Below, piece by piece: positions 4,126-38,628 of a stretch of DNA of 38,795 nucleotides (position 1 is the stretch's first letter; every line of letters begins with the position of its first letter). Made by a program: the position numbers and the translations under genes. The notes under the pieces were generated by a model. That model saw only the letters and a program-made list of their open reading frames with translations. It was not told where the DNA came from and made no database searches. Source of the stretch: Bacteroidota bacterium (lineage in GTDB: Bacteria > Bacteroidota > Bacteroidia > Chitinophagales > LD1); NCBI GenBank assembly GCA_947478005.1, contig CANJVG010000019.1, positions 1 through 38,795 of the forward strand. Reading direction: 5' to 3'.

Positions 4126-4333
4126 CTAACCGACTGGTTTGCCTTCGTTGGCTGCTTCGAGAACGACTAACCGGGTGGTTTGCCTTCATCGGATGCTCCC
4201 GATGACCACTAACCGACTGGTTAGCCTTCGTTGGCTGCTCCAAGAGCGACTAACCGAGTGGTTTGCCTTAATCGGATGCTCCCAATGACAGCTAACCGAG
4301 TGGTTTGCCATTTTCAGGAGTTCGCGACAATGG
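4126..4333. repeat. tandem repeat array A (period 41-42 bp, super-period 83 bp)
   Basis: The string ctaaccg recurs at 4126, 4167, 4209, 4250, 4292 and 4334, so spacings are 41, 42, 41, 42 and 42. Each unit begins ctaaccgNgtggtttgcctt. The second halves alternate between a type built on tcgtt...aacga and a type built on tcatcgg...ccgatga. Both are inverted repeats (for example 4186-4192 against 4199-4205). A third palindrome ctaacc-gact-ggttag sits at 4209-4224. Because 83 is not a multiple of three, the array cannot be a protein repeat. It fills the 497-bp gap (4022-4518) between the 3' end of the E2 gene and the 5' end of the LRR gene. The remainder of the gap holds a terminator at 4465-4498 and no recognisable gene. 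Confidence 0.88.
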
Positions 4334-4464
4334 CTAACCGCCTTTTTTGGTCATAAATTACGAAAAAGAACACAAGATTCAATCTATTCTGAACATTGCA
4401 TCCTTTCCTTTTTCCCTGAAATCATCTTGTTTTCTGCTATCGAGACCAGTTCAGCTTTTAGCAA

Positions 4465-4498
4465 AACAAAAAACCATGCAATTGCATGGTTTTTTGTT
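4465..4498 (-). terminator. intrinsic terminator of the E2 gene
   Basis: A perfect palindrome with arms ccatgcaa and ttgcatgg is bordered by A6 on the left and T6 on the right. It lies 20 bp past the stop of the minus-strand E2 gene and works on paper in both directions. Confidence 0.88.
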
Positions 4499-4518
4499 TA
4501 AAAGAACCTTTTGGGCCC

Positions 4519-5832
4519 TTAAATATCGCGATTGAAGTCGAATTGTTCTAAATAATCGGCCACTTTGCGGACAAAAGAGCCACCGAGCGCGCCATCTACA
4601 ATGCGATGGTCGTAGGAATGGGACAGGAACATCATGTGGCGAATGCCGATGGTGTCGCCCTGTTCGGTTTCAATCACCACGGGTTTCTTTTTGATGGCTC
4701 CGGTAGCCAGAATAGCCACCTGCGGCTGCAGGATAACGGGTGTGCCCATCACATTTCCAAAGGTTCCTACATTCGAAACGGTGTAGGTGCCGCCTTCAAT
4801 TTCATCAGCTTTCAATTTGCCCAAGCGCGCACGACCCGCCAGGTCATTTACCTTCTTAGCAAGGCCAACCATATTTAACTGGTCAGCATTTTTAATAACA
4901 GGCACAATCAGATTGCCCGATGGAAGCGCAGCCGCCATACCCACATTGATGTCCTTTTTGACAATGATATTCGTTCCATCCACCGAGGCATTCACCAGCG
5001 GAAAATCGCGCAAGGCTTTGGTTACGGCTTCTATAAAAATAGGCGTGAACGTAAGGTTCTCACCATACAGGTCCATAAATTTCTTCTTCACCTTATTGCG
5101 CCACAACACGATATTGGTTACATCGGCTTCTACAAAGGAAGTGACATGGGCAGAAGTCTGTTTGCTCTTGACCATGTTGTCGGCAATCAATCTGCGCATT
5201 CTGTCCATCTCGATAATTTCCACATTGCCGCTATAAGATTTAGCAGGAGCCGGAGCGTTTGTCGTTTGTGGTTTTTCGTCTATCGTTTGAGGAGCAATGA
5301 CCGTTGGCTGATTATTGGTAGCCGTTGAGCGGTTTTGCACATAAGCAAGAATGTCTTTTTTGGTAACTCTTCCTTCGGCTCCTGTGCCGTTCATGGTTTC
5401 GAGCTCGGCCATTGATATTTTTTCCTGACGGGCAATGTTCAACACCAAAGGAGAATAGAATCTATCGGAAGAAGATTGGGGATTTTGCAAAGCCGATTGA
5501 GAATTAGAAACCACCGCAGTTTTAGTAACTGCTTTTTGTGTAACTACTTCTGCTTTCTGTACCGAAACAGGATTGGCCGTAGCGGCCGCAGCATCTGTTT
5601 CTAACACAGCAACCACTTTACCCACAGCAACCACATCGCCTTCTTTGTACAGTAATTTTTGAACAACACCAGCAACGGATGATGGCACTTCGGAGTCCAC
5701 TTTATCAGTAGCAATTTCCAAAACGGCTTCATCCAGTTTCACCATATCACCTTCCTTTTTCAACCATTTCAGGATTGTTGCTTCGGTAATACTCTCGCCC
5801 ATCTTGGGCATTATCAATTCAAATTGAGCCAT
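4519..5832 (-). CDS. 2-oxoacid dehydrogenase complex E2 (dihydrolipoyl acyltransferase)
   Basis: This 437-residue protein has the complete E2 layout: an N-terminal lipoyl domain with the modified lysine in ATDKVDSE (K44), an Ala/Pro/Thr-rich linker, a peripheral E1/E3-binding domain near residues 120-160 (FYSPLVLNIARQ...GAEGRVTKKDIL), a second linker and the acyltransferase core. The core ends with the active-site motif SYDHRIVDGALGG near residues 405-417. Such enzymes transfer an acyl group to CoA in the pyruvate, 2-oxoglutarate or branched-chain complexes. The substrate class cannot be fixed by eye, and no E1 or E3 gene lies in the window. The stand-alone context fits the E2 type often linked to branched-chain or pyruvate oxidation in Bacteroidota. 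Confidence 0.93.
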   Translation of the reverse strand: MAQFELIMPKMGESITEATILKWLKKEGDMVKLDEAVLEIATDKVDSEVPSSVAGVVQKLLYKEGDVVAVGKVVAVLETDAAAATANPVSVQKAEVVTQKAVTKTAVVSNSQSALQNPQSSSDRFYSPLVLNIARQEKISMAELETMNGTGAEGRVTKKDILAYVQNRSTATNNQPTVIAPQTIDEKPQTTNAPAPAKSYSGNVEIIEMDRMRRLIADNMVKSKQTSAHVTSFVEADVTNIVLWRNKVKKKFMDLYGENLTFTPIFIEAVTKALRDFPLVNASVDGTNIIVKKDINVGMAAALPSGNLIVPVIKNADQLNMVGLAKKVNDLAGRARLGKLKADEIEGGTYTVSNVGTFGNVMGTPVILQPQVAILATGAIKKKPVVIETEQGDTIGIRHMMFLSHSYDHRIVDGALGGSFVRKVADYLEQFDFNRDI

Positions 5833-5931
5833 GTCGGTTTGTTTACGGGGCTAAAATAATTTGATTGAGGAGAGTTGCAAAGGAAGAGCGATAAGCACAC
5901 AGTACGCGAGTTGCTATTTGCGATAGGAAGT

Positions 5932-7176
5932 TCAATTCAGTTTATCCAATACGAACAACCGAAGCAGATTCAAAGCAGCATTGGAAAACACACGAATGTT
6001 TTCCATGCGCGAAGGGAAGAAATGAAATTTCTTCGCTACCATCTTTTCCTTTGAACCAACGGCAATCCACACCGTGCCAACCGGTTTATCAGCAGTTCCG
6101 CAATCAGGTCCTGCAATGCCACTAATAGCAATGCCATAGGTAGTGTCAGTGATATGCAGCAAGCCCTGCAACATTTCTTTCACACACTCTTCGCTTACAG
6201 CACCTACCGAATTAAGTGTTTCGGTCTTTACACCAAGCAGTCGTTCTTTTACCTCATAGGAATACGAAACCACCCCTCCATCAAAATATCTTGAACTACC
6301 GGGAACGGATGTAAAGAGATGAGCAATATAACCACCGGTGCAGCTTTCGGCACAGCTTACTGTTTCCTCTTTTTGCAACAATATTTTGCCAACCACCACT
6401 TCCAGCTTCTCCTCGCCTTCTGCATATACATAGTTGCCGAGAATCTCTTTCATCTTTTCTATCTGCACCTGCACCACACCTTTCAATTCCTCCGTATCTC
6501 CATGAGCACTGAGGCGCAATTTCACGGTTCCTAAATCGGGTAGGTAAGCGAGTTTAATATTGGCAGGAAGTTCTTCTTCAAATTGGGCAAGCAGATTAGC
6601 CACGACCGATTCGCCCGCACCGGCTGTCATTATCGTAGAGTGAACAATTTTAGGAAAGGAGAATTTTTCCTGCAAGCGAGGAATGACCTGCTCTTCCATC
6701 AGATGTTTCATTTCGTGAGGAACACCGGGCATGGAAATAAATACCACCCCATCGCGTTCGAACCAGGTTCCCTGCGCTGTGCCCCGTTTGTTTGGCAACA
6801 TGATGCAATCTTTCGGAATCATAGCCTGAGAGCGATTCATCTCGAGCACCTTCAATCCTCGCTTTTCAAAAATCTGTTTCATTTTCTCCCACACTTCTTC
6901 GTTCAGAACCAGCTCTGTTTCGAAATAATCCACCAAAGTCTTCTTAGTTATATCATCTTTCGTGGGGCCTAGGCCACCTGTCATTAAAACTATTTGTGAA
7001 GATGCTTTTGCGCGATTGAGTGCTTCCACAATTTGCGCGGCATCGTCCCCGACAGAAATAATTTCGTGAAGCTTAACTCCCAGCTCCGAAAACTTTTGCC
7101 CTATCCAGGCGCTGTTGGTATCCACTATCTGTCCTATCAGGATTTCATCGCCTATGGTTATTACGGTTGCTTTCAT
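5932..7176 (-). CDS. cinA: CinA family protein (MoCF domain plus NMN amidohydrolase-like domain)
   Basis: This 414-residue protein matches the two-domain CinA family. The N-terminal half is a molybdopterin-binding-like domain (MKATVITIGDEILIGQIVD, then MTGGLGPTKDD). The C-terminal domain is the PncC/CinA type (ETVSCAESCTGGYIAHLF, YGIAISGIAGPDCG, KPVGTVWIAVG), which in characterised members deamidates nicotinamide mononucleotide in pyridine nucleotide salvage. The length is normal. It lies 100 bp from the E2 gene on the same strand; the gap shows no terminator, so cotranscription is possible. The DNA between it and recQ carries two copies of ttgagtattaag (about 7180-7212), a simple intergenic repeat. 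Confidence 0.93.
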   Translation of the reverse strand: MKATVITIGDEILIGQIVDTNSAWIGQKFSELGVKLHEIISVGDDAAQIVEALNRAKASSQIVLMTGGLGPTKDDITKKTLVDYFETELVLNEEVWEKMKQIFEKRGLKVLEMNRSQAMIPKDCIMLPNKRGTAQGTWFERDGVVFISMPGVPHEMKHLMEEQVIPRLQEKFSFPKIVHSTIMTAGAGESVVANLLAQFEEELPANIKLAYLPDLGTVKLRLSAHGDTEELKGVVQVQIEKMKEILGNYVYAEGEEKLEVVVGKILLQKEETVSCAESCTGGYIAHLFTSVPGSSRYFDGGVVSYSYEVKERLLGVKTETLNSVGAVSEECVKEMLQGLLHITDTTYGIAISGIAGPDCGTADKPVGTVWIAVGSKEKMVAKKFHFFPSRMENIRVFSNAALNLLRLFVLDKLN

Positions 7177-7236
7177 TTTTGAGTATTAAGTAGTTGGTAT
7201 TGAGTATTAAGATAACTGCCGTTCGAGTTTTCTGGT

Positions 7237-9402
7237 TCACATGCTTGCCATTACCGCGCGGATTTCGCCATAGGAATAATCGTCTCCAAGAAATTGTTTT
7301 ACCGGTGCAGTTGCAATGCCCGGGTTCAGTTTTCTAATCGCTGCTCTGATAGGTTCTATTTTGTGGACTGGAACCAACTGCTCAAGTTTCACTTCTCCAC
7401 TTTTTATGAAATGAATTAAATGTGTTTCAATAGTGGTTGTGGCCAATCCTCTTGCTTCTGCAATTGTGGAAATTGAGTCACCCTTCTTAAACATGTTTAG
7501 TGAAATGTTGTAAGTATCGCTTTCATTAGAGTTTCTTCTTGTTCGACTTTTACTTTTGCTTTCGCGTTTAGGTTCTTTCAGCTGAATGCGCGACTCCAGT
7601 TTATTGGTTTGGCAATAGGTTTTAATCTCTTTTAGAAATGCTTCGCCATATCGCTGTGCTTTTGCATCGCTAACGCCACTTATTTTTTTCATCTCGTCAA
7701 GAGACAACGGTAGATAGGTTGACATTTCTATTAAAGTGGCATCGGAGAAAATAATAAACGCAGCGATGTTCACTCTTTCAGCTATATGTTTTCTTACCTG
7801 TTTTAAAGAGGCAAACAGATCTCGGAAATAATCGCGCGTTCCTTCGCTTACCAGCGATTCTTTTTTCTCCTCTTTAATTTTTGTCTTTATTAAATCAACC
7901 TTTTCTGTTCCTTTTAAAACGGCATCGCTTTTTGCCGTGAGTGTAAGAATAGGATACTCGCCATCGGTTTGTTTGAGGTAGCCTTGGGCAATTAAATCCT
8001 TGATATAATCGAACCAGTTGTCTTTTGAAATGTCGGCTCCTACTCCATAAGTTTTCAATTCCTTGTGCTCAGCTTTAATCTTTTCTGATTTGCTGCCGCG
8101 CAGAAATTCAATTACATAGTTGGTCCCCCATCGCTGCTCCAATCTTTTCACTGCACTTAATGCCTTTTGCGCCAGGATGGTTCCGTCAAAGCGTTCGTAT
8201 TGGGTATTGCAGTTATCGCAGCTTCCGCAAATGTCTTTTGCTTCTTCTGAAAAATAATTGAGAAGGAATTTTCTCCGACATGTTTTCAAATCACCAAACT
8301 CGCCCATTTGGTTCAACTTCTTCAACATGATTTTGCTTTGTTCCTGGTTACCATCCACCGAGGCGAAGCTTTTCAACTTCACAACATCACCCCAACTAAA
8401 AAAGAGAAGTGCTGTACTTTGCAAACCATCTCTTCCCGCTCTACCTGTTTCCTGATAATAGCTTTCTACATTCTTTGGCAAGTCCATGTGCACCACAAAC
8501 CGCACGTTCGATTTATCAATACCCATTCCGAAGGCAATGGTGGCCACAATAATTTTTACATCATCTTTCAGAAACAGTTCCTGATTCTTTTCTTTTGTCT
8601 CTCTATCTAAGCCCGCGTGATACGGCAAGACACTAAATCCATCTTGCTTTAAATCCTTCGCGAGGTTTTCTACCGAGCTTCTGCTGAGGCAATAAATAAT
8701 ACCACTTTCGTTCTTGTGTTTTGAAAGATAGTTGAGTAACTGTTCATAAGACTTCCTTTTGGGCTCAACAGAATAAAAAATATTAGGGCGGTTAAAGCTC
8801 GAAAGAAAAAGAGCCGGTGATTTCAAGGCTAATTTCTCCATAATATCCTTCCGAACCAGTTTGTCGGCTGTCGCAGTAAGCGCAATGACAGGTATGCCGG
8901 AGAAATGAACTTTCAGTTTTGCCAACTGCATGTACTCCGGCCGAAAATCATGGCCCCAACTTGAAATACAATGCGCTTCGTCAATAGCAAAGAGAGAAAT
9001 ATTAAGTTTCTTTAGGTAATCGATAAACTGGTCTCCACTTTGCATTAAGCGTTCGGGAGCTACGTAAAGTAACTTTAGCTTTTGGCTTTCAATGGCTCGA
9101 AATACTTTTGATTGTTGCGAAGTGCTTTGCGTTGAATTGAGAAATGCCGCTTGTACTCCGTTGCTTACCAAGGCATCCACCTGGTCTTTCATTAAGGAAA
9201 TGAGTGGAGAAATAACAATGGCCAGCCCGTCCATCATCAGCGCGGGAATCTGAAAGCACAAGGACTTGCCGCCTCCTGTAGGCATAAGCACTACGCAGTC
9301 TTTCTTTTGCAACACGGTTTCAATAGCCTGCTCCTGATTCATGCGGAATGAATCGTAACCGAATTGATGCTTTAGAATTTCTTTGGCGCGGGCAATGCTC
9401 AT
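7237..9402 (-). CDS. recQ: ATP-dependent DNA helicase RecQ
   Basis: RecQ unwinds DNA 3' to 5' in recombinational repair. The protein (721 residues) has a Walker A motif PTGGGKS at residues 41-47, DEAH at 141-144 and the helicase C motifs ending YYQETGRAGRDG. The RQC zinc-binding cysteines are in CRRKFLLNYFSEEAKDICGS followed by CDNC. An RQC winged helix, an HRDC domain (about residues 510-595) and a C-terminal helix-turn-helix tail (about 630-721, SISTIAEARGLATTTIETHL) follow. This extended architecture is common in Bacteroidota RecQ. The start is supported by MSIARAKEILKHQFGYDSFR at the usual place. Confidence 0.96.
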   Translation of the reverse strand: MSIARAKEILKHQFGYDSFRMNQEQAIETVLQKKDCVVLMPTGGGKSLCFQIPALMMDGLAIVISPLISLMKDQVDALVSNGVQAAFLNSTQSTSQQSKVFRAIESQKLKLLYVAPERLMQSGDQFIDYLKKLNISLFAIDEAHCISSWGHDFRPEYMQLAKLKVHFSGIPVIALTATADKLVRKDIMEKLALKSPALFLSSFNRPNIFYSVEPKRKSYEQLLNYLSKHKNESGIIYCLSRSSVENLAKDLKQDGFSVLPYHAGLDRETKEKNQELFLKDDVKIIVATIAFGMGIDKSNVRFVVHMDLPKNVESYYQETGRAGRDGLQSTALLFFSWGDVVKLKSFASVDGNQEQSKIMLKKLNQMGEFGDLKTCRRKFLLNYFSEEAKDICGSCDNCNTQYERFDGTILAQKALSAVKRLEQRWGTNYVIEFLRGSKSEKIKAEHKELKTYGVGADISKDNWFDYIKDLIAQGYLKQTDGEYPILTLTAKSDAVLKGTEKVDLIKTKIKEEKKESLVSEGTRDYFRDLFASLKQVRKHIAERVNIAAFIIFSDATLIEMSTYLPLSLDEMKKISGVSDAKAQRYGEAFLKEIKTYCQTNKLESRIQLKEPKRESKSKSRTRRNSNESDTYNISLNMFKKGDSISTIAEARGLATTTIETHLIHFIKSGEVKLEQLVPVHKIEPIRAAIRKLNPGIATAPVKQFLGDDYSYGEIRAVMASM

Positions 9403-9456
9403 TTCATTACAATAATAAATCAGACTGGGTAAAACAATAAACCTTTAAGTTAGCGA

Positions 9457-12210: not shown

Positions 12211-12254
12211 TCGGTTAATTCGGGTTAATTCAATTAGATCACAGCGCTGTACTT

Positions 12255-14141: not shown

Positions 14142-14394
14142 GGTTCGTAATTTCCTCTATGTTTTCGTCTACTTTCTCTAGGTTCTCGCGGATTTTCACG
14201 AGGATATCGACAACTTCCTCTTGCTTATTGGTTATTTCCTCTTGCTTCTCGTCAATATCCTCGAGGAAGTTGTGACTTCCTCGAGGATATCGTCAGTTTC
14301 CTCTTGGTTCTTGATAGTTTCTTGGAGGAAATCGGTAGGCTCCTCTTGCTTATTGCCAATTTCCTCTAAGTTCTAGCCAACTTCCTCAAGGAAA
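14134..14394 (-). pseudogene. possible decayed coiled-coil gene within array B
   Basis: On the minus strand array B reads as seven-residue repeats with leucine or isoleucine and acidic positions, such as FLEDIDE KQEEITN and NLEKVDE NIEEITN, closing with RL and a stop at 14134-14136. The frame is broken by the 20-bp unit at 14270-14289 and by a stop at 14373-14375. Beyond the array the frame continues to about 14508 without a start ATG. A heptad coiled-coil pattern this regular is suggestive, but any 21-bp tandem repeat gives seven-residue protein repeats in every open frame. The DNA array may therefore be primary and the peptide accidental. Confidence 0.3.
14145..14394. repeat. tandem repeat array B (12 units of 21 bp)
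   Basis: Units start at 14145, 14165, 14186, 14207, 14228, 14249, 14270, 14290, 14311, 14332, 14353 and 14374. All spacings are 21 bp except two of 20. The shared core is a TTTCCTC or similar in the middle of each unit, preceded by tcg or ttg. From 14207 on, units beginning tcg and ttg alternate (one begins tag), giving a 42-bp super-period. Several units contain the palindrome ttcctcgaggaa or close forms of it. The array lies 290 bp upstream of a small FnIII-like gene. Read on the minus strand it encodes heptads with coiled-coil character, so a decayed gene cannot be excluded. Confidence 0.9.
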
Positions 14395-14688
14395 TTGAGA
14401 CCGAACACCTGATTTTCTTCTGTCTTAACTTGTTGGGCACAAGAAATTCTTTGAGGAACACAAATATTTTTTTGTTTATTCTTAATAAATGTAAATTGTA
14501 TGGGCGCTTAGCAACAATTTCATGGGTGTTTCGGTAAAATTATGCATCTGACCTAAAGGCCCCGCGCTTTAAAAAAACAGAAACGGTGCAGGCCGGCAGG
14601 GCAGATAAAAAAAGTTCCATGCGCACGGAATAGTAAGTAAACATTTTTTTAACCAGTATTTTTAAAACCATTTAATTTTTCAAAAGTT

Positions 14689-23634: not shown

Positions 23635-26600
23635 CTACTTGCATCTCAAAATCATGCCTCCTGCATTGCCGGGTTTGGAATGAAGTACCTTTGATAGTAC
23701 CGGTTTTTGAGAGACTACCCCTTTTTTACTTTGCTCTACTTCACCTTCATACACATCTATCTTCATCGTGTTTAGCCCGACTTTACCTTTGTTCCAGGCT
23801 TTGGCAATGATGTAGTTTTCGTTTCCCGGCAATAAAATAATCTGTCTGACAATGGCTCCGTGTTCTCTCAGTCGAATCATTTCGTGATTCACCAATATCT
23901 GCCCGTTAAAGATGATGGAGACAGTATCATTATCTTCTTCGCCATCGTCATAAAGCATTACTGTCAGGAAACACTCATCCACTTCGGCTTTGTGTTCGTA
24001 GTTAATAGCATCGTTACCTAAATTAAGTGCAGTTTCTATTTTTTCGGGAGCCACTATTGAAACTGGTGGCAAATCGTCCTTTACTATTACACTATATGTG
24101 CAGCTCTGGGTTTTTCCAAAATGATCAGTGGCCTTGAACGATAAAGGATTTACACCAACAGGCAGGAAACAACCATCATGTGTCCCCATCACTTGTTCTA
24201 TAGTATCAATCAATGCCGGGTTGCTCACTGTGGGCACAGCATAATGGTAAGCAACTCCCCTGCGGTTGGCGGCTAAATGGATGGTGGTATCAGGTTCACA
24301 ATTGAAATGCCATTCTTTAGCAGCTGCTTCTGCTGCAGCAGTAGCCTTATTTTTTTTAGAAGAAGTGCGCGTCTTAGCCTGTTCGCTATGGTCTTTCCAC
24401 GCCACCATTTCTTCTTTCACTGGATGCTTGTTTTTCGCAACAGGTAGCTTGTATTCTTCCAAAGCAGTTGCTGCATGTTTTTCTTCTTCAGGTTTTAATG
24501 GTTGTTCTTTCTTAGGTTCCACCACGACTTCTTTTGCTACTGGTTTTGTTTCGGCAATCGATGCTTTACGTTCTTCAGTCTTTACTACAGCCGGTGTTGG
24601 TTTTTCTTCCTTAAGTTTTACCGACTCTTCTTTCTTTGATTCAGCAATTGTCTTCGCTGGTTTGCTGTCTTCCACTTTTGCTGTGCTAAGTTTTTGTATT
24701 GGTGGAATAACTGTTGCTACGTCTTTCTTTACCTGTTTTTTTTCCACAACAGATCCTTTGAGTTCTTCTTCTCTCGCAACAGGCAACGTGGGTTTTTCTT
24801 CTTTAAACTTTGCCCGGTCTTCTTTCTTTGGTTCAGCAATTGTCTTAACAACTTTGGCCTCCTCTACTTTTACTGGATTACTCTTTGTTGAAGAAGGAAC
24901 AGCTACATCCACTTCTTTTATAGCCGCTTTGTTTTCTCTGTGAATTGAAATTACTTCATCTCCCTCTTTCAATTCAGGAGTAGTCTTTACTATTTTAGTT
25001 TCAGGACCTTTTATCAGAGTTTTTCTCTCATTTACCGTTACGGTGAAACTGCACTCGGTTCTATTACCCGAAGCATCGGTTGCCCGGTACTTTACAGTAG
25101 TAATGCCAAGCGGGAATTTATTCCCGCTTTTAAATCCGGTCACCATTTCAAGTTTTACATTCGGGCAATTATCGTAAGCATCTATTGACGGATACGCCAC
25201 CTCGGTACTTGGGAAACCGGAAATAGCTTCTGCCACAATATCTTTTGGACAGGTGAATCTTGGTGCTTCGTTATCGGTTACAGTAATACCAAAGGTGCCA
25301 AACTGTTTGTCTTTTAAAGTGCTTGCCTGATAGGTGACGGTATGTTTGCCAACTGTAAAGGCGGAGCCACTAAGAAATCCTTTTGCCAGTTTCAGTTGAA
25401 CCTTGCCTCCATCAGAGGATGTGGCCGTTGGTTGACCATAAACTACTTTTGCAAAGCATTTTCCATTATCGGTATTTTGTTCAATGCTTTCCGGAAGTTT
25501 AATTGTCAGTATAGGCTGAACTTGTTTTGTCGCAGCAACTGTTTCTTCTCTTGGTAGCGTTGCTAGTGTATCTTTCTTGTTTTGCTTAAGTGCTACTTCA
25601 GTTTTAGGTTTAATCACTATCGAGTCCTTTTTATCATGCTTCTTAGATAAATCGGCTTGCGTTTGACTAGTAACAGTATCCTTCTTAGCCTGTTTAGGGA
25701 ATAATTCAACGGTTGCTTTCCTTGCAATTGTATCTTTCTTCAGTTGCTTGATAGCTACTTCAACTTTTGGTTGACTCACTGCCAAATCCTTTTTAGCGTG
25801 CTTCGCAGATAATTCAGTTTGAGCTTGTTTAGCAACAGTATCTTTCATAGCATGTTTAACGGTTAATTCAACAGGTGCAAGTTTTGCTATCGTATCTTTC
25901 TTCGGTTGCTTAATAGCTATTTTAACTTTCGGCTGAATCAGTACGGAATCCTTCTTTGGTTGTTTAATATTCAAGTCATTTTGCGCTTGCTTGGCAACTG
26001 TATCTTGTTTTGGTTGTATAATGCTTATGTCAGCTTGCGGACTCTTAGTTGGAGTGTCATTGAAAAGAACAGATATTTCAGAAGCAGATAACCCACGATT
26101 GTATATGCGCAGGTCGTCCATGGAACCGCTGAAGTATTTTATTCCACCGATATTATCCCGTCCTATTTCGAGACCGGCATCGTTGGGCACGAATAATTTA
26201 TTGCTCATAGTTACCGCAGCCACTTTGCCATTGATATAGAGTTGCAGCCAATTTTCATCAAGCACCATTGCTACAAAACACCATTGATTAAATTCAAGCG
26301 GGTGGCTGTTGTAGTTATGATCCTGTAATGAAGACTCACTACTGGAAAAGATAATGCTTTTTGAATCCCCAAAAAGTCTTTTCAAGTAGAATCTGTATTG
26401 TGCCGAATTACTTTCTGCCGACTTAGATAGTAGCGGAAGACTCATATCGTTGGACGAAGCTTTTCCTTTTTCTAATTTAATCCAACTGCATATGGTTATA
26501 GAAACTTTGGGCTTGCGAAGTTCAGTAGAGCTGGCCACAGAAATGAACCCATCAACACCATTAAAATGAAGTGCTCCCTCTTTATTTCCAAAACGATCTT

Positions 26601-29925: not shown

Positions 29926-29975
29926 AGAGTCAATTGCAATTAGATATTAATTATTAACCGATAAAAACAAGCATC

Positions 29976-30314: not shown

Positions 30315-30340
30315 GTACACTCTTTCACTTGTTACAAATA

Positions 30341-30371: not shown

Positions 30372-30389
30372 ATTTGTGTGAAGCAAAGA

Positions 30390-30959: not shown

Positions 30960-30979
30960 AATTGTTTTTTTAGTTGGAG

Positions 30980-30987
30980 CAAATGTA
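30980..30987 (-). promoter_or_regulatory. candidate -7 box
   Basis: tacatttg on the minus strand matches TANNTTTG and is placed 20 bp before the start codon at 30959. No good -33 element was found. Confidence 0.4.
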
Positions 30988-31067
30988 TGAAAGTATTGAA
31001 AAGATGAAAATCGGGAGTAAGAATTTGTTGATTTTGGGATTTATTTAAGGAATTTTTACAGGTTAAA

Positions 31068-31925: not shown

Positions 31926-31999
31926 AGTTGACGGTTGGCAGTTGACGGTTGGCAGTAAAGGCATTTGTATTTGCCATGAACTGCGAACCGAGAACTGCT
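31926..31999. repeat. intergenic gttgacggttggcag-type repeat
   Basis: Two direct copies of gttgacggttggcag are followed, after about 20 bp, by tgaactgcgaaccgagaac, whose reverse complement resembles the first arm. The whole can fold as an imperfect hairpin between fabD and folE. Related sequences occur at 33064-33176, 33540-33610, 34944-34975, 35953-35985 and 36898-36925. Confidence 0.65.
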
Positions 32000-32597
32000 A
32001 ACTTAATTTTGCTGATATCAGATTAATAAATTCGTTTCGGGTGGTTTGTTGTTCAAACTGACCGGTGAAGGCAGAAGTGGTCGTCACTGAATTCTGCTTC
32101 GAAACCCCACGCATCATCATACACAAATGTTTGGCTTCAATCACCACTGCTACGCCCAGCGGGCTCAATGCATCCTGCAGTGCATCGCGCACCTGGATGG
32201 TTAATCGCTCTTGCACCTGTAATCTTCTTGCAAACACATCGACCACTCTGGCCAGTTTGCTTAAACCAACGATTTTACCGTTTGGTATATAGGCTATATG
32301 GGCGCGACCATAGAAAGGAAGCATGTGATGTTCGCACAGCGAAAACAATTCGATGTCTTTAACAATGACCATTTGGTTGTGGTTCTCATCAAACAGGGCA
32401 CCACGCAGAATTTCCTGTGCATCCATTTCATAACCCTGAGTAAGAAAGTGCATGGCCTTGGCTGCACGCTCCGGAGTTTTCTCTAAACCATTTCGGTTTA
32501 CATCTTCTCCTAATGCAATCAGCATTTCACGGTAGCTGTTTTTGACCAACTCCAGGGAAGCAGGGTCGAACTGCTCTATTTTTTGATACTTTTTCAT
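31998..32597 (-). CDS. folE: GTP cyclohydrolase I
   Basis: FolE converts GTP to 7,8-dihydroneopterin triphosphate, the first step to folate and other pterins. The 199-residue product has the zinc ligands C88 and H91 in [11 protein letters not shown] and C159 in KHLCMMMRG, the substrate motif [15 protein letters not shown] and the C-terminal [11 protein letters not shown]. The length is normal. It is 57 bp from the PTPS/QueD-family gene, which uses the FolE product, so the pair probably acts in one pathway. Confidence 0.97.
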
Positions 32598-32654
32598 TTG
32601 TTGATTTTAGACAGTAGAAACATCCTGACAATGGATTTGTTCAACAGCTGTTAA

Positions 32655-33062
32655 TTATTCGCCAAAATACTCTACGTATATATTTTCTGTTTCTACCAGT
32701 TTAATACAATGCAACTGGCAACCTTTAATATGCGGCACTACCCATTTCCAAATCTGCTGCACCACGTTCTCGGTGCTTGGCAATACATTCTGAAACTCCG
32801 GAACATCCATATTGAAGTTCTTATGGTCGAGTCGTTCGACAATTTCGCGCTTCATTATTTTTGCAAGGTCGTGGGCATTGATGATAAAACCCGTGTCAGG
32901 ATTTGGAGTGCCTTTTACTGTGACAAATACATCGAAGTTATGTCCGTGCCAGTTCTTATTGGCGCATTTACCAAAGACCTCTACGTTCTTTTCTTCCGAC
33001 CAACTTGGATTGGCTAAGCGATGCGCTCCGTTAAAATGTTCTCTTCTTGTGAGGTATACCAT
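32655..33062 (-). CDS. 6-pyruvoyl-tetrahydropterin synthase / QueD family enzyme
   Basis: This 135-residue zinc enzyme acts on dihydroneopterin triphosphate. Zinc ligands are H14 (FNGAHRL) and H39 and H41 (NWHGHNF), and the catalytic cysteine is C33. The spacing CxxxxxHGH is that of PTPS-type enzymes rather than the CxxxHGH usual in QueD, so the product may be 6-pyruvoyl-tetrahydropterin or 6-carboxy-tetrahydropterin. Glutamates TEN and ETENIYVEYFGE complete the active-site pattern. It is immediately upstream of folE on the same strand, consistent with a shared pterin branch. No other queuosine or biopterin genes are in the window. Confidence 0.88.
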   Translation of the reverse strand: MVYLTRREHFNGAHRLANPSWSEEKNVEVFGKCANKNWHGHNFDVFVTVKGTPNPDTGFIINAHDLAKIMKREIVERLDHKNFNMDVPEFQNVLPSTENVVQQIWKWVVPHIKGCQLHCIKLVETENIYVEYFGE

Positions 33063-33063
33063 A

Positions 33064-33176
33064 GTTCGCGGTTCACGGTTGGGAGCTTAGTTCGCGGTTC
33101 GCAGTTCGCGGTTCATAGTAAAGACAGGTTTTGTATCTACTGTGAACTGTGAACCGTCAACTGTTAACTACTCCCT
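33064..33176. repeat. left flanking repeat of the four-helix-bundle gene
   Basis: Several copies of agttcgcggttc and the reversed tgaactgtgaacc form a hairpin-prone block. From about 33102 it aligns with the right flank at 33538 in the same order: gttcgcggttca, a spacer of about 25 bp, gtgaactg, then gtcaactgttaactactccc, which makes the flanks homologous direct repeats. Confidence 0.65.
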
Positions 33177-33524
33177 CAGTGAATTTCTTAATGCATTAAT
33201 TTGTTTGAATAAAACTTCATACTTCGAATACAAGTCTGCAAATTTTTCTTGATCAATATACTTTCTGTCTAAAGCCAAATAAAGACAGGAAATGACTTCT
33301 AAAGTAGAGCGCGAAGAAAAACTTAAAAATCTTTTAAACTCAACCTTGCTCAGTCCTGTTGACCCTTCGGCAATATTCAAATTTACTGAATCAGCTGCTT
33401 TCTTTATCTGAACCGTTAAACTGAATAACTCAACCTTCGGAAAAGTAAGAGATACCTCATGTATTTCATTTGACAATGAACGAGAGGTTTTCCAAACTTC
33501 AAGTTTCTCAAAATTGAATGCCAT
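33168..33524 (-). CDS. four-helix-bundle protein (S23 / 23S rRNA intervening-sequence family)
   Basis: This 118-residue helical protein has the family signature FEKLEVWKTSRSLSNEIHEV, QIKKAADSVNLNIAEGS and FKRFLSFSSRSTLEVISCL. These proteins were first noticed in intervening sequences of 23S rRNA genes and are frequent in Bacteroidota as free-standing, scattered genes. Members form pentameric helical bundles; the role is unclear. Here it sits between the PTPS gene and the thiolase, flanked on both sides by homologous hairpin repeats, which suggests that gene and flanks move or were inserted together. There is no transposase nearby. Confidence 0.9.
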   Translation of the reverse strand: MAFNFEKLEVWKTSRSLSNEIHEVSLTFPKVELFSLTVQIKKAADSVNLNIAEGSTGLSKVEFKRFLSFSSRSTLEVISCLYLALDRKYIDQEKFADLYSKYEVLFKQINALRNSLRE

Positions 33525-33530
33525 ACATCG

Positions 33531-33610
33531 TGTTTAATTGTTCGCGGTTCAAGGAAAATACAAGGGTATCTGGTTCAACCGTGAACTGCCATCCGTTATC
33601 TGTCAACTCC
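33531..33610. repeat. right flanking repeat of the four-helix-bundle gene
   Basis: The block gttcgcggttcaa, spacer, ggttcaaccgtgaactg, then tctgtcaactcccaactc matches the left flank in order and spacing. Its end overlaps the last codons of the thiolase gene, whose stop is at 33603-33605. Confidence 0.6.
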
Positions 33611-34889
33611 CAACTCTTTCCAAAATCATCGCATGTCCATGAGCTCCGGCTGCACAGGCCGATAGCAGGGCATACTTTCCGTTTTCTTTAATCAATCGGT
33701 TGGCAGCGGTGGTTACTAAGCGTGCCCCGGTAGCGCCAAACGGATGACCGAGGGATAAGGAACCTCCCCACAGATTGAGTTTCTCCATTGGCACCACACC
33801 TATTGCTTTATCACGGCCCAGTTTGTTCTTTCCAAAATCATCGCTGGCCATACACTTGAGGTTAGCCACTATCTGGCCGGCAAATGCTTCGTGAAATTCG
33901 AATACATCAATATCGTTGAAGGTGATTCCTGTTTTAGCAAGCAATTTCGACACTGCATAGGTAGGCCCTAACAATAGTTCCTCATTCAAATCGCAACCAC
34001 TGAAAGCATAAGAATGCAAATAAGCTTTTGGTTTCAAGCCTAGCTCTTTGGCTTTGTCTTCGGTCATCAACAAAACCACTGCGGCTCCATCGGTTAAGAA
34101 AGAGGCATTGGCTGCGGTGATAGTTCCGCCTTCTTTTACGAATGCCGGTTTCAGTTTCGAAATCTTTTCCATCGTTGTATCGGCACGGAAACCGTTGTCT
34201 TTTGATATGCGTTTGAACTTTGGTGCTGCTTCTACAGGCGCTATTTCATTAGCCAGCAAACCTTCGGCATCTGCCTTGGCCGCTAACTGATGGGAGCGGA
34301 CCGCAAACTCATCCTGCTCTTTACGTGTGGCATTATAACGGGCAGCCAGTATATCGCAGTCAAGACCCATCGTTTTACCGGTTAGGAACTCGGCAATAGC
34401 CGGAGCCTCGGGTTTAAAATCGGCCAGACGAAGGGTAGAAGCAAATTTGAGGGAGTCGGCAAGGCCTTTGAGTTTTTGTGCCTTGAAGAGTTTCTTGCGC
34501 ATGGGTTTGTTGAATAGGATAGGAGCATCGCTGGCGCAGTCGGTGCCACCGGCAATAGCCACATCGGCATCGCCATTTTGCAGAATGTGCATGGCGCTTA
34601 CTATCGCCTGGTTGGCGCTGATGCAAGCCATGGTAACGGTATGGCAAGGGGAGGTTTGCGGTATGCCCGCAGTGAGAGCCGCTTCGCGCGCTACGTTGCT
34701 GGTTTTTACATTGGTAATGACGGTGCCCATGACCACATAGCCTACCTGTTTAGGGTCTATGCCGGTTTTGTCGAGCAGGCCTTTGATGGCAAACTGCCCG
34801 AGCTGGTAGCTCATTAAATCCATATAATCGGTGCCTGAACGCAGGAAGGGAGTGCGCGCTCCGTCTATGACTACTATTCGTCTGCTCAT
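33603..34889 (-). CDS. acetyl-CoA C-acyltransferase (FadI-type thiolase)
   Basis: This thiolase carries out the last step of fatty acid beta-oxidation. The 428-residue protein has the nucleophile C89 in TMACISANQAI, a sequence typical of the FadI/trifunctional-protein beta subunit group. H382 in GHPFGATGAR and C412 in LLSACAAGAHGHA are the other catalytic residues. The length fits that group rather than the ~390-residue biosynthetic thiolases. No fadJ-like partner is in the window. Its 3' end abuts the S23 repeat flank. Its 5' side has a small hairpin (tccgaag...cttcgga near 34913-34931) and then the tandem duplication. Confidence 0.94.
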   Translation of the reverse strand: MSRRIVVIDGARTPFLRSGTDYMDLMSYQLGQFAIKGLLDKTGIDPKQVGYVVMGTVITNVKTSNVAREAALTAGIPQTSPCHTVTMACISANQAIVSAMHILQNGDADVAIAGGTDCASDAPILFNKPMRKKLFKAQKLKGLADSLKFASTLRLADFKPEAPAIAEFLTGKTMGLDCDILAARYNATRKEQDEFAVRSHQLAAKADAEGLLANEIAPVEAAPKFKRISKDNGFRADTTMEKISKLKPAFVKEGGTITAANASFLTDGAAVVLLMTEDKAKELGLKPKAYLHSYAFSGCDLNEELLLGPTYAVSKLLAKTGITFNDIDVFEFHEAFAGQIVANLKCMASDDFGKNKLGRDKAIGVVPMEKLNLWGGSLSLGHPFGATGARLVTTAANRLIKENGKYALLSACAAGAHGHAMILERVGS

Positions 34890-35043
34890 GGTTATTGTTT
34901 TTGTCCGAAGGACTTCTTCGGAGAGGGCGCGAAGATAGGAAAGTTAGCGGATGGCAGATGGCGGTTGACGGCAGGTAGGTGGAGATTGGCTGATGAAGTC
35001 TCTGAGTTTATTACTTTTATACTGCACTAACTCAGGCGCTTTC

Positions 35044-35874
35044 ATGAAATTGAAGTTTCTCTTTATAATCCTCCTATGTATTTGTAAATTAGAATCCGAA
35101 TGTCAGGATTGTAGATCTGTGAGGTCAATGCTTAGTCTAATGGAATCCGGTATAGGCGATACTTTAGTTACAATCTGGACTTTCGATGATACAGGTAGAT
35201 TGCTAAAGGAAAGGCATGAGCCTCAGCCAAGCCAGCTTTATCCTTCAACCTCCTACAATTACGCAAATGACTCAATATTAGGTATAGACAGTGTTGGAGG
35301 TAAAATTTTGATAGTGACTAATAAGAACGGTTTCCCGATACAAACTATAATTGCTAAGCCTACCTATTCTATTTCTTATTATGCTACTTATAGTAAGGAA
35401 GGTAATCTTCAAAAAATTACGGTTCACCATGAGCCACTTGTTCCTCCCTCTGCAAAAACTTCAACTTTAGATACCATTGATGAAGTTATTGATAGTATCT
35501 TATACAAGGAGGGAAATATTGTGTCCTATACTATTACTACTAGGCCCGTAAAGTATAAAACAATCGTAGCAAAGCATTATTGCATTTATTATAACAAGCC
35601 TTATTCACAGGCGTTTGACCCAACCTACAAAATGCTCGGTTTGTGTATTCAATCAGGTGGTGTAATGGGTATTTTCAATATACAGGCTTTTTGCATGAAC
35701 CTGTTGCAGTCAAATACTGATGACAAGAAAAATATCGTGCAAACTTTCGAGTATCAGTTTGATGAAACAGGTAGGGTAATCGAAATGACATCTACCAAAA
35801 TCAATAGGTTTGTGAAAGACAACAAAATAAGTAAGTGGACAGGAAGAACGAAATATGAGTATGCTTGTGAATAG
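35044..35874 (+). CDS. secreted protein of unknown function, paralogue 1
   Basis: The longest frame starts at 34993, but the ATG at 35044 matches the start of paralogue 2 at exactly 1008 bp and gives a signal peptide (MKLKFLFIILLCICKLESEC), so it is preferred (276 residues). Two YD-like segments (IWTFDDTGRLLKERHE near the start and FEYQFDETGRVIEMTST near the end) recall the strand pairs of RHS/YD beta repeats. Between them lie conserved blocks such as YSKEGNLQKITVHHEPLV and PYSQAFDPTYKMLGLC. Cysteines are conserved between the paralogues. I recognise no named family. Confidence 0.82.
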   Translation: MKLKFLFIILLCICKLESECQDCRSVRSMLSLMESGIGDTLVTIWTFDDTGRLLKERHEPQPSQLYPSTSYNYANDSILGIDSVGGKILIVTNKNGFPIQTIIAKPTYSISYYATYSKEGNLQKITVHHEPLVPPSAKTSTLDTIDEVIDSILYKEGNIVSYTITTRPVKYKTIVAKHYCIYYNKPYSQAFDPTYKMLGLCIQSGGVMGIFNIQAFCMNLLQSNTDDKKNIVQTFEYQFDETGRVIEMTSTKINRFVKDNKISKWTGRTKYEYACE

Positions 35875-36051
35875 ACTTTCGGAGTATCAATAAATAGAAC
35901 CGCCATCCTTCGACCACTCACCCTCCCACTACTTCCCCTTCCCCAACCAAATTCACGGATGACAGATGGCGGTTGGCGGCAGATAGGTGTCGGTAGGCGG
36001 AAGAAGTCCACCGATTTATTACTTTTATACTAACCGAAACAATTTAAATGT

Positions 36052-36882
36052 ATGAAGTTAAAACTTCTCATTGTTGTCATTGTAAGTATTTATGGTCTGC
36101 AAGCTAAAGCTCAGATATGCAGACCCGTAAAATGTAAATTAGAATCCGTTAATCCTGTTATTAATGATACTGTGGCAAAGGTTTGGACTTTTGACAATCA
36201 AGGTAGGTTAATAGAAGATTCATGGGTGCCATCTCAGTTACCGTCCTATTCATCTATGTTCTATAGTTATTCTAATGATTCTATAATGGGTAGGGACACG
36301 GTAGGACGTAAAATTTTGATTATTATCAATAAGAATGGACTTCCCATACAAAGCATCATTACTAATCCTACCTATTTCCTTTCTTACTATGCCATCTATA
36401 GCAAGGAAGGCAATATTCAAAAAATTACGGTTCACCATGAACCACTTGTTTCATTACCCGCCAAAGTTCCAACTTTAGATACCATTGATGAAGTTATTGA
36501 CAGAATCTTGTATCGCAAAGGGAATATTGTCTCCTATAATATTACCATGGTAACTGCGAAGCATAAAGCAAGTGTGAAAAAGTATTATTGCACTTATCAT
36601 CATAAGCCTTATTCGCAGGCTTTTGACCCAACTTATAAAATTTTAGGTTTGTGCAATCAACCGGATGGTGTACTGGGGATTTTCAATATACAGGCTTTTT
36701 GCATTAACCTGTTGAAATCAACTATTGATGACAAGAGAAATACTGTAAACACTTTCGAATATCAGTTCGATGAAAAAGGTAAAGTAATAGAAATGACTTC
36801 TACCTACAATCATAGGTTCGGCAAAGACAACAAAATACACACGTGGATAGATAGAAGAAAATATGAGTACGCTTGTGAATAA
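36052..36882 (+). CDS. secreted protein of unknown function, paralogue 2
   Basis: This 276-residue protein has a signal peptide ending LQAKAQ. It aligns with paralogue 1 over its full length without gaps: VWTFDNQGRLIEDS against IWTFDDTGRLLKER, YSKEGNIQKITVHHEPLV against the same block, and RRKYEYACE against RTKYEYACE at the end. The N-terminal 20 residues differ most. Both copies keep the upstream tttattacttttatac segment, a possible promoter part carried with the duplication. Retention of both intact frames suggests that both were under selection. Confidence 0.85.
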   Translation: MKLKLLIVVIVSIYGLQAKAQICRPVKCKLESVNPVINDTVAKVWTFDNQGRLIEDSWVPSQLPSYSSMFYSYSNDSIMGRDTVGRKILIIINKNGLPIQSIITNPTYFLSYYAIYSKEGNIQKITVHHEPLVSLPAKVPTLDTIDEVIDRILYRKGNIVSYNITMVTAKHKASVKKYYCTYHHKPYSQAFDPTYKILGLCNQPDGVLGIFNIQAFCINLLKSTIDDKRNTVNTFEYQFDEKGKVIEMTSTYNHRFGKDNKIHTWIDRRKYEYACE

Positions 36883-36936
36883 ACTTGCTTAGTGCCAATA
36901 CCGCGAACCGCTATCCGTCAACCGCTCACCCACCCC

Positions 36937-37281
36937 CTACTTCCCCATCCCCAACCAATCCTCCACCAACTTAGTTACTTCTTTTTTCTGTTCATCGATG
37001 CTGAGCGACTGTGATTTAATCAGGCGCATTTGTTTCATCATTGCTCTTTCCTTCTCGTCTAAAATAAGCGAGAGATCAACAATAGGAGTGAAGCTTTTAA
37101 TGACCTCTACCGGCACACCGTAAAGCTCCGATGCCACAATAAGGCAGTCATCGGGGATATCGCGGTTGTCGGTTTCGTAGCGGTTGTAAACCGGTTGGCA
37201 TTTGCCCATTTTATCGGCTACAAATTTCTGCGCATGGTTACTAATAACGCGCAGCAGTCTAAGGTTTTCGCATACAGCCAT
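36937..37281 (-). CDS. XRE-family helix-turn-helix regulator
   Basis: This 114-residue protein has a helix-turn-helix domain in the first ~65 residues (NLRLLRVISNHAQKFVADKM, then CQPVYNRYETDNRDIPDDCL and ASELYGVPVEVIKSF). A helical tail (about 70-114) may mediate dimerisation. The domain layout matches small Cro/C1-type repressors. It is divergent from the FnIII-like gene at 37564, and the 282-bp gap contains two palindromic boxes of the kind such repressors bind. Its last ~20 bp are duplicated at 35929-35950. Confidence 0.88.
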   Translation of the reverse strand: MAVCENLRLLRVISNHAQKFVADKMGKCQPVYNRYETDNRDIPDDCLIVASELYGVPVEVIKSFTPIVDLSLILDEKERAMMKQMRLIKSQSLSIDEQKKEVTKLVEDWLGMGK

Positions 37282-37437
37282 TGTGATATTGTTTAGGTGT
37301 TTATAAATGATCTCCTTTTGGCATTAACAACCCTAGGCAGTAATTGATAAATAAGCAGGTGTCTGAGCTGCAGGAGAATCTATGCTTATAAAAATATGAA
37401 ATGAAAACCTAATGCCATAGGTTCGGCAGGCATAAAT

Positions 37438-37480
37438 GCTGGTATAATTTATACCAGCATTTGGTATAAACTATACCAGC
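37438..37480. promoter_or_regulatory. paired palindromic operators ggtata-N3-tatacc
   Basis: The first site is a perfect 21-bp palindrome with 9-bp arms gctggtata and tataccagc around att (37438-37458). The second has ggtata-aac-tatacc at 37463-37477 with one outer mismatch. Centres are 22 bp apart, about two helical turns, so bound dimers would lie on nearly the same face. Position between the XRE gene and the FnIII-like gene suggests autoregulation and control of both. Confidence 0.78.
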
Positions 37481-37563
37481 TGATTGAACCGGAGAAGGAG
37501 GCTCCGCCTCTACTTTCACGTTCAATTCAATTATTCAACAACAAAACAAAAAAACAAACGACT

Positions 37564-38247
37564 ATGAAAACAAAGTTTAATGCCGTAATGCATGTTACGG
37601 TCAATCAGCCAAAGGAAATAGCTGAACTTGCTATGCGGGTGGGCACCGATATGGATGAGAACGATGATGTTTACACCGCGCCAAGTCCCCCATTAGCAGA
37701 TTTGGCTACCGAAAACGGAAAGCTGCTAACCCTGAACGGCCAGGCCAAGGGCAACAGCCTGAAGAAAGCCGAGCGCGATGCGCAGGCGATTAAGGTTTTT
37801 GGCATGCTGTCGAAGGAACTGGTGTATGTAAATGAGGTGGCAGACGGAGATTTAGTGAAAGTAGAGAAATCGGGTTTTGATGCGGAAAAGGCGCCCGAGG
37901 CGCATGATATTCCCGATACACCCGTTATTAAAAGAGTGGATGATGGTAAGGTGGCACATAGTGCTAAGATTTTTTTGGTAGGGCCGCTACTGGTAGGCGC
38001 ACGCTATAGTGTGCAGATAGTTAATTTAGATGCCGATACGCCTACCCCTCCCGGGCCGCCAACACCCGGTGGAGATGATTTTGACCCTGATGCTTTGCCT
38101 TGGTCTATGGCTCTGGAAAGTGTAAACAGTTTTGAACTGGTGGTGCTGAATCTGAAACGCGGAAAGGATATGGCTTTTCGAGTAAGGGCAGAGGATGGTT
38201 CAAAGAAAAGCAATTGGAGTGATCCTTATTTCTTCCTTCCAAGATAA
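37564..38247 (+). CDS. small fibronectin type III-like protein, second copy type
   Basis: This 227-residue protein has the same layout as the gene at 14689: a helical N-terminal part (LATENGKLLTLNGQAKGNSL, then RDAQAIKVFGMLSKELVYVN and EVADGDLVKVEKSGFDAEK), a hinge and an FnIII-like C-terminal domain (about 135-227) ending MAFRVRAEDGSKKSNWSDPY. A proline/glycine-rich loop (TPTPPGPPTPGGDDFDPD) interrupts the FnIII domain between strands. There is no signal peptide; the start MKTKFNAVMHVTVNQPKEIA is polar. The palindromic operators upstream and the divergent XRE gene suggest repressor control. Array C follows behind the terminator. Confidence 0.8.
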   Translation: MKTKFNAVMHVTVNQPKEIAELAMRVGTDMDENDDVYTAPSPPLADLATENGKLLTLNGQAKGNSLKKAERDAQAIKVFGMLSKELVYVNEVADGDLVKVEKSGFDAEKAPEAHDIPDTPVIKRVDDGKVAHSAKIFLVGPLLVGARYSVQIVNLDADTPTPPGPPTPGGDDFDPDALPWSMALESVNSFELVVLNLKRGKDMAFRVRAEDGSKKSNWSDPYFFLPR

Positions 38248-38268
38248 AATCAGCGCTTTTTTATTTTG

Positions 38269-38311
38269 AAAACTGCCGGTAGTTCGTCAAGAACTATCGG
38301 CAGTTTGCTTT
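38269..38311 (+). terminator. intrinsic terminator after the second FnIII-like gene
   Basis: Arms 38270-38285 and 38291-38306 pair (aactgccggtagttc with gaactatcggcagtt, one G-T pair) around the loop gtcaa, followed by a T-rich stretch gcttttaa. The stop codon is 22 bp upstream. Confidence 0.82.
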
Positions 38312-38334
38312 TAAGTAGCCTTGAGGTTTGGCAC

Positions 38335-38628
38335 CTTAACCTTAACTTTCTAAAACTTAACCTTAAGTCTTCACAAGTTGGCCTTAACTTTTTCCGACTT
38401 AGCCTCAAGTTTTCGCGACTTAACCTTAACTTTTTTGAACTTAGGCTTAAGTCTGCGTGACTTAGCCTTAAGTTTTTCGGACTTAAGCTTAAGTGTGCGG
38501 AACTCAAGCCTAACTTTTGGGAACTTAGTCTTAAGTCAGCGCAACTTAACCTTAACTTTTTTAGACTTAACCTTAAGTCCGAGCGCCTTAACCTTAAGTT
38601 TTTGGGACTTAACCTTAAGTCTGCGGAA
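38335..38628. repeat. tandem repeat array C (14 units of exactly 21 bp)
   Basis: Fourteen units of exactly 21 bp start at 38335 and every 21 bp to 38608. The first half of each is a form of cttaaccttaa, which contains the inverted repeat cttaa...ttaag when followed by g. The second halves alternate strictly: odd units are T-rich (ctttttt or gttttt types), even units are GC-rich (gtctgcg, gtgtgcg, gtcagcg, gtccgag types). The true period is therefore 42 bp in seven copies. Several reading frames stay open through it only because 21 is divisible by three. It lies between the FnIII-like terminator and the next gene; the rest of 38248-38724 shows no other feature. Confidence 0.93.

Follow-up and report, generated by a model that had tools for sequence, protein, structure and literature searches.

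Three intergenic tandem arrays in a 38,795-nucleotide stretch of DNA from a Bacteroidota bacterium (contig CANJVG010000019.1 of assembly GCA_947478005.1; the whole stretch is the window and its genome the host) are members of a much larger set of arrays that keep a common 21/42-bp spacing in largely unrelated unit sequences. This 21/42-bp excess is a real feature of the host genome and not the product of chance. The host arrays may well be minisatellite cores, largely eroded, of small non-autonomous elements of the miniature inverted-repeat transposable element (MITE) type that settled in intergenic gaps, a reading that we would as soon accept as doubt. The first-pass annotation of the window had proposed that one process lies behind its arrays. 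Support for that proposal comes from another genome, designated G020, in which arrays of this kind lie within transposon-like elements that have inverted ends and 8-bp duplications, but around the 36 host arrays tested no such ends and duplications were found.

The host sample comprised two sets of 20 stretches and the window, together 832,312 of 3,994,227 bases (21% of the genome). Match runs were scored at all lags of 8-199 bp, those clusters being retained that scored at least 30; a first-order Markov control copy of the 832 kb gave 0 arrays at that score. The best lag is at most 1 bp away from a multiple of 21 for 39 of the 42 host intergenic arrays and is an exact multiple for 32 of them (for the 39, binomial p 8e-30 against 1/7, lags being assumed uniform). 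Best lags of 42 (24 arrays), 21 (6), 41 (3) and 125 (2) are joined by one each at 63, 83, 84, 87, 102, 104 and 174. Pooled over the 41 host arrays of at least 120 bp, match stands at 0.485 at lag 21, 0.589 at 42, 0.469 at 63 and 0.530 at 84, on a background of ~0.26 at most other lags. Repeats classed as coding, that is, arrays within a longer open frame of at least 150 codons (a rule that makes the split between intergenic and coding rough), have scattered lags, with 2/13 near a multiple of 21, and both of these are apparently misclassed arrays. Three arrays classed as coding are of the same kind by appearance, all with lag 42 (L005 and L148 in the host and L164:18293-18856 in G020), and they are excluded from the 42 host and 16 G020 intergenic arrays. 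The tandem-repeat check on the whole genome that the first-pass annotation had advised has thus been made over 21% of it: intergenic arrays are many, their units are mostly distinct and their periods cluster at 21 and 42, so that the arrays of the window are neither alone nor part of a scatter of periods.

Arrays of the 21-bp type were found on 20 of the 21 host contigs sampled (C15 is the exception), and a single foreign contig is therefore no explanation. Their density is ~5 per 100 kb; extrapolation from 42 arrays in 832 kb would give ~200 in the host genome, set to one ruler and most of them without detectable common sequence. The 34 array-bearing gaps divide 19/8/7 between tandem, divergent and convergent gene pairs, the other gaps 173/63/38. 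Gene orientations at array gaps are thus about those of other gaps, as insertions would predict, and not as terminators or promoters would.

Among Bacteroidota the pattern is patchy and not phylum-wide. Intergenic arrays near multiples of 21 make up 9 of 10 in G004 (436 kb), a same-genus relative with a mean protein identity of 77% over 74 reciprocal best hits (each of at least 50% identity), 16 of 16 in G020 (221 kb; the metagenome-assembled genome BWOrgControl_Nextera59_MAG1, distant from the host) and 4 of 5 in G021 (85 kb; Umea3_bin-1094). G020 and G021 were pursued since arrays were already visible there and are not a random draw. The pooled match in G020 is 0.706 at lag 21, unit identity being above that of the host. 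At 78 other Bacteroidota loci (1.38 Mb, a few of them from close relatives of the host) 1 of 17 intergenic arrays is near 21, and that one adjoins a 14-bp-period repeat. Arrays are few in the other same-genus samples: G005 (140 kb) has one 41-bp array and an 83-bp repeat that overlaps a tRNA gene; a single array with another period is present in G007, in G012, where it is a tRNA cluster, and in G009, where it resembles clustered regularly interspaced short palindromic repeats (CRISPR); and small samples (7-23 kb each) of G002, G006, G008, G010 and G011 yielded zero arrays. Two other kinds of repeat came to light in this survey. A CRISPR-like stretch with constant repeats and unique spacers at a period of ~77 lies at a contig end (L135:1-605, G009 contig C2), and at five loci listed under Pedobacter (L053, L056, L091, L093, L100) intergenic repeats with a 28-bp period lie at similar distances from the acyltransferase gene. 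The host and G004 samples have 31 syntenic adjacent gene pairs in common, 0 with an array, and the window genes have almost no synteny with the relatives sampled.

It is in G020 that the carriers of such arrays can be delimited. Its elements are ~360-1200 bp long, with 12-bp inverted ends and an internal 21-bp array. Two families are distinguished by their end sequences, GGGTCAAYGTCA and CCAGGGCAATCG. In the first, the ends GGGTCAACGTCA and TGACATTGACCC are inverted repeats matching at 11/12 positions, and the end pattern GGGTCAAYGTCAWWWKC, with up to 2 mismatches, occurs at 41 G020 sites against 8 for a reversed control. Perfect 8-bp target duplications are present at 4 of the 8 complete elements among the G020 loci examined (L164, L188, L197, L202), with imperfect duplications at L204 and L210 and none at L189 and L192; a ninth element, split over two contig ends (L213, L217), has identical 8 bp on either side. 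The L164 array that had been classed as coding itself sits in an element with ends and duplication. Arrays with the unit GGGAACCTTGGGGAACATGTC give 50 matches on 20 contigs, several per locus. In L189-L192 a left part of ~300 bp (92-98% identical) is followed by the array and then by a ~70-bp tail, marking out a discrete element, with which L188 has in common just the tail and the initial 40 bp. That tail is absent from L171 and L196, which have another flank in common.

The elements vary in their cores. At least four array types occur within the 8 complete elements. The core types in the first end family are GGGAAC, AAAGGTTTGAAG (L197), GATAAAGTGTGTATAGAATGT (L204, and also ahead of the GGGAAC core in L188) and TTTCCTTGCAAT (L210), and a fifth, of AAGCATAATGGATC type (L165), adjoins the same tail. 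In the second end family, perfect 12-bp ends and a perfect 8-bp duplication surround the GGGAAC array of L171 (score 20; null maximum 16), and the pattern CCAGGGCAATCG has 13 sites, its control 0. One end family thus holds at least four core types and the GGGAAC core occurs in two end families: ends and cores are therefore exchangeable, the 21-bp spacing being what stays constant. L188, with two different 21-bp array types side by side, looks as if one core were replacing the other. The G020 leader has no plasmid match, and against 296 sampled genomes of the phylum it gives only matches of 29-44 bp, in 2 genomes.

The three arrays of the window are where the first-pass annotation had placed them, with slightly wider boundaries. 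All are intergenic, were delimited with Tandem Repeats Finder and the lag-match scan and are assigned to neither strand. The architecture described there fits array 3 (38316-38642) best, in which 21-bp units with a CTTAACCTTAAG core alternate in 42-bp pairs; its lag match (0.65 at 21, 0.73 at 42, 0.75 at 84) is the clearest of the three. Array 1 (4111-4349), on the other hand, has no 21-bp period (0.17 at 21, 0.52 at 42, 0.72 at 83), 41- and 42-bp units alternating to give an 83-bp super-period. Array 2 (14147-14401) has ~12 units of 21 bp (TTCCTCGAGGAA type) without a clear 42-bp alternation (0.54 at 21, 0.51 at 42); its top lag is 125 (0.70), corresponding to six units of ~20.8 bp. The short inverted repeats noted within the units exceed column-permuted controls in array 3 (p 0.005, the minimum of the test) and array 2 (p 0.015), whereas array 1 shows no such excess (p 0.10, the 42-bp framing of the test being ill-suited to an 83-bp array).

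The window arrays had also been said to share no sequence. Among themselves that is so: in a BLAST comparison of 57 arrays (41 host, 16 G020) arrays 1, 2 and 3 do not match one another. Arrays 2 and 3, however, each have relatives elsewhere in the genome. In the whole comparison 11 of the 41 host arrays are tied to another array of the host and 10 of the 16 in G020 to another of that genome, with 0 links between the two, and eleven G004/G005 arrays match no array of the host or of G020. So few links argue for a rapid turnover of unit sequences. Array 2 is one of four related host loci, the others being C12:20411, C69:5798 and C46:20753, from which it differs by 59, 68 and 77 substitutions and 0, 1 and 2 indels, respectively, over 264-265 columns; the alignments are colinear with few gaps, and in the family as a whole ~20-30% of array positions differ between copies. 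The adjoining leader (14402-14556, minus strand) is common to the three relatives in alignments, and a related leader, of weaker likeness, stands before a different array type at L147, L149 and L153. A profile made from these seven leader copies recovered the same seven and no further full-length copy in the own-genome sequence searched, and array 2 was not found in 17 other genomes of the genus. Array 3 has one partial relative (C48:2864-3018, 72% over 154 bp); no phage match was found for it. A constraint on array length was considered and dropped: loose pairwise alignments had given 106 indels to 561 substitutions in leaders against ~0.03 per substitution in arrays, and the contrast was lost on better alignment of the four array-2 copies.

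If the host arrays are MITE-type cores in a largely eroded state, they would descend from the same kind of element as those of G020. After insertion, a core would gain and lose whole units, usually two at once (42 bp), and its sequence would drift fast, with the spacing held at two (or four) helical turns. The last two steps are the weakest: units in phase might keep the core bent or one-faced, so that the spacing is retained, and a core of that form might help the ends of a short element to meet, or might favour its coating by a host DNA-packing protein. For the spacing, the main alternatives are that the period was simply inherited and that some G020 cores originated in coiled-coil coding sequence. 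The window arrays would work like such cores and are probably what remains of them.

A number of observations weigh against eroded MITE-type cores. Around 36 host arrays no pair of flanks exceeds mismatched flank pairs in inverted ends and duplications; the sole outlier, L151 (score 18; null maximum 16), falls inside its own array. (With 20-30% divergence between copies of host array 2, eroded ends would be expected.) No relative was found in the sample for 30 of the 41 host arrays, which is unusual for a MITE, and a search of its own genome found array 1 alone, as a single copy. In the part of G020 covered, 0 of 10 open reading frames (ORFs) near the ends is a transposase. An indel shortage in the array relative to the leader, which would have pointed to selection on length, was not found: the leader has 3 indels to 310 substitutions and the array 7 to 408 (p 0.53). 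Predicted bending, in a wedge model, is 0.58 for arrays, 0.47 for column-permuted copies and 0.37 for random windows; the excess is weak, with 9/46 arrays individually at p<0.05, and some bending is to be expected of every 21-bp repeat. The A+T power is unusual in 11/46 arrays at 10.5 bp and in 12/46 at 5.25 bp, and 10.5 bp is thus not distinctive.

The off-register host periods of 41, 83, 104, 125 and 87 imply a helical turn of 10.25-10.9 bp; this fits helical phasing and fits equally well small losses from an inherited 42-bp unit. An excess of palindromes over column-permuted controls (p<0.05 in 30 of 46 arrays, p<0.01 in 25) is a real feature, which could reflect dimeric proteins or the manner in which units are formed. 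Together, the weak bending excess and the palindromes are compatible with a protein that reads spacing, as had been suggested from the window, without demonstrating one. A class of bacterial intergenic or mobile DNA selected for helical phase, its unit sequence free and its recurrence fixed at every two turns, with a packing protein or transposition complex reading curvature and spacing instead of letters, is an idea to which we give a low probability.

Minisatellites that arise in place by replication slippage would owe their period of 21 to inheritance or to a bias of the local replication machinery, and mobile elements would carry some arrays incidentally. The host arrays that stand without a relative in the sample and without detected ends are what one would then look for, and the failure of the 11 G004/G005 arrays to match any host or G020 array is what birth in place predicts. 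A single unit length, however, is not a prediction of slippage, and at the 78 other Bacteroidota loci near-21 arrays are the rare case already mentioned (1/17). The G020 arrays inside elements with target duplications, and the presence of array 2 with its leader at four places, also argue against it, and we consider slippage unlikely.

Somewhat less likely still is a coding origin of the period, seven codons making 21 bp: the arrays would encode coiled-coil heptad repeats, or descend from sequence that once did, for which the 21-nt tandem repeats encoding coiled-coil heptads in DUF16 genes of Mycoplasma pneumoniae provide a precedent (PMC3472980). In G020 one open frame spans leader and GGGAAC array and ends at a TGA within the terminal repeat, with heptads such as VGKLSKH; L164, L188, L189, L192 and L202 are elements with such a through-frame. 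Stops in the GGGAAC frame number 1 against 16.9 expected, and the ORFs of L189 and L202 exceed the cut-offs of coiled-coil Pfam families, DUF16 among them (E 8.6e-16 and 1.2e-11), but matches of that kind would arise from heptads of any origin. Of the eight array ORFs compared with Pfam, those of L170, L168, L017, L021 and L008 and the minus-strand ORF of L171 are below every cut-off. A hydrophobic 3-4 pattern stands above codon-shuffled copies in 6/15 G020 arrays (corrected p<0.05; several of one family) and 4/28 host arrays, and codon-position entropy reaches p<0.05 in 7/46 arrays (Fisher p 0.011). Against column permutation there is an excess of open frames (21 vs 12.8 for 39 host arrays, 13 vs 7.4 for 14 G020 arrays), nearly all of which is removed when the control is a dinucleotide-shuffled consensus (29 vs 28.8 host arrays, 14 vs 13.7 G020 arrays; 3.13 vs 2.79 frames in the host and 3.93 vs 3.04 in G020).

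Nor is there a synonymous excess, whether in the G020 frame (210 vs 270) or over all open frames (1501 vs 1535 in the host, 823 vs 820.5 in G020); the best frame per array gives 513 vs 449 (host) and 246 vs 186 (G020), the frame having been picked for that. Among the 42 host periods, ten are no exact multiple of 21, and periods of 41, 83, 104 and 125 break the frame. Every frame has at least 2 stops in 14 of the 39 host arrays, including window arrays 1 and 2, and coding was rejected as an unlikely present function of these two; array 3 has at least 1 stop per frame, and an open frame was found through none of the three. Coding may nevertheless be the source of the period in some G020 cores.

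Binding sites for a dimeric protein, with a palindrome in each 21-bp unit presented on one helix face and with either different regulators or one sequence-tolerant protein in attendance, would account for a spacing of two helical turns and for the palindrome excess, and we regard them as improbable, more so than an origin in coding. Unit sequences differ at most loci, 16 of the 46 arrays are without palindrome excess, divergent promoters are not favoured, and predicted pair arms are kept no more than expected in nearly all 46 arrays, L154, L169:1078 and L171 being the exceptions. A role as structured RNA or hairpin was rejected on that same comparison: pairs are retained about as expected within arrays (3/46 exceptions), with no general covariation. 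Decay from heptamer runs, three of which make 21 bp, is very improbable, and as a general account it is refuted by near-background match at lags 7 and 14 (0.264 and 0.280 in the host against 0.485 at 21; 0.278 and 0.274 in G020 against 0.706), even with heptamer runs present in the window, 14-bp-period repeats at other Bacteroidota loci and heptamers said to be the commonest intergenic tandem repeats across a wide range of prokaryotes (PMC6344855).

The surroundings of the window arrays are ordinary. Genes around them include those for EF-Tu, a 2-oxoacid dehydrogenase acyltransferase, CinA, RecQ, LptD, type IX sorting-tail proteins and a thiolase, and an Rfam scan of the window gave tRNA-Gly as its sole match. 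Array 1 is flanked by the acyltransferase gene (4519-5832, minus strand) and by a gene with DUF7619 and Por_Secre_tail matches in Pfam (1484-4021, minus strand). In the interval between array 1 and the acyltransferase gene there is a terminator-like hairpin, a 36-bp self-inverted match at 4464-4499, and another, a 37-bp self-inverted match (86%) at 38270-38306, stands directly upstream of array 3; both were judged terminator-like by eye and neither is assigned a strand. An AT-rich segment adjoining array 1 (3961-4043) has a 74% match to L148:17871-17955. The window has other repeats as well: 60-bp coding repeats (3095-3751) in the DUF7619/LRR/Por_Secre_tail gene, repeats of 162, 108 and 54 bp (25556-26040) in a gene with HYR and Laminin_G_3 domains, and short heptamer runs, dissimilar to the 21-bp arrays, at 5256-5289, 33090-33114 and 33139-33169.

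Several known systems resemble these arrays in part. CRISPR arrays are regular and lie beside a leader, with a constant repeat and unique spacers. The arrays described here are likewise regular and beside a leader, but they are without constant repeat and unique spacers; in the window arrays, read by eye, no such organization is present and units vary along the length (cas genes were not searched for). The heptamers of the SPADE survey have in common with them an intergenic position, a common period and an unknown function, but their period is 7 (PMC6344855), and the present arrays give no clear signal at 7 or 14. Tetris, Galileo and pearl are like them in combining transposon ends with internal tandem repeats able to seed satellite arrays, and the internal repeats of Galileo contain extra transposase sites; in contrast, these elements are eukaryotic and their units long (~220 bp in Tetris), and the part of that account used here describes no fixed short period over unrelated units (PMC4079207). 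The DUF16/RepMP1 repeats of M. pneumoniae come closer, being head-to-tail 21-nt units gained or lost singly or in pairs (42 nt) and encoding coiled-coil heptads, to be compared with the GGGAAC frame of G020 (PMC3472980). They lie inside annotated genes of one gene family, however, and inverted ends or target duplications are not described in the portion of that account drawn on (PMC3472980), whereas no frame of window array 1 or 2 is free of stops.

The nearest relative is BrickBuilt of Porphyromonas gingivalis, a MITE with a minisatellite core: at 19 intergenic loci its 23-nt repeats are bounded by a leader and a tail, with small inverted ends (PMC4596501). The first-pass annotation had known of no named element of this kind; BrickBuilt corrects that statement. 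Common to the two systems are a Bacteroidota genome, an intergenic position, head-to-tail repeats without spacers between leader and tail, small inverted ends, a variable number of units and many loci (PMC4596501). All three window arrays and the 42 arrays of the sample are spacer-free, intergenic and head-to-tail. Common flanks are found for array 2 (4 copies) and in G020; array 3 has its one partial relative and array 1 is single. Terminal inverted repeats with a target duplication were not found around 36 host arrays and were found in G020. BrickBuilt differs in having one 23-nt unit sequence, ends near those of IS5-family elements and target duplications of differing length (PMC4596501), as against the 21/42-bp units, many unrelated unit sequences, cores common to two G020 end families and 8-bp target duplications found here. 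In the open-licence literature, among the matches listed and as far as the portions cited extend, BrickBuilt is the sole bacterial minisatellite in a MITE and there is no account of intergenic 21/42-bp arrays of varied sequence; many unit sequences on one ruler, cores common to end families and the density in the host are likewise absent from the cited part of the BrickBuilt account.

Sequence and geometry, which are usually conserved jointly, come apart in these arrays. They are thus naturally occurring sequences with which to ask if the spacing of DNA is read by a bacterial protein or by a transposition complex, or if mobile non-coding DNA has arisen from coding heptads. Set beside BrickBuilt, a single repeat in a single species, they would broaden the MITE-borne minisatellite into a system whose cores are exchangeable.

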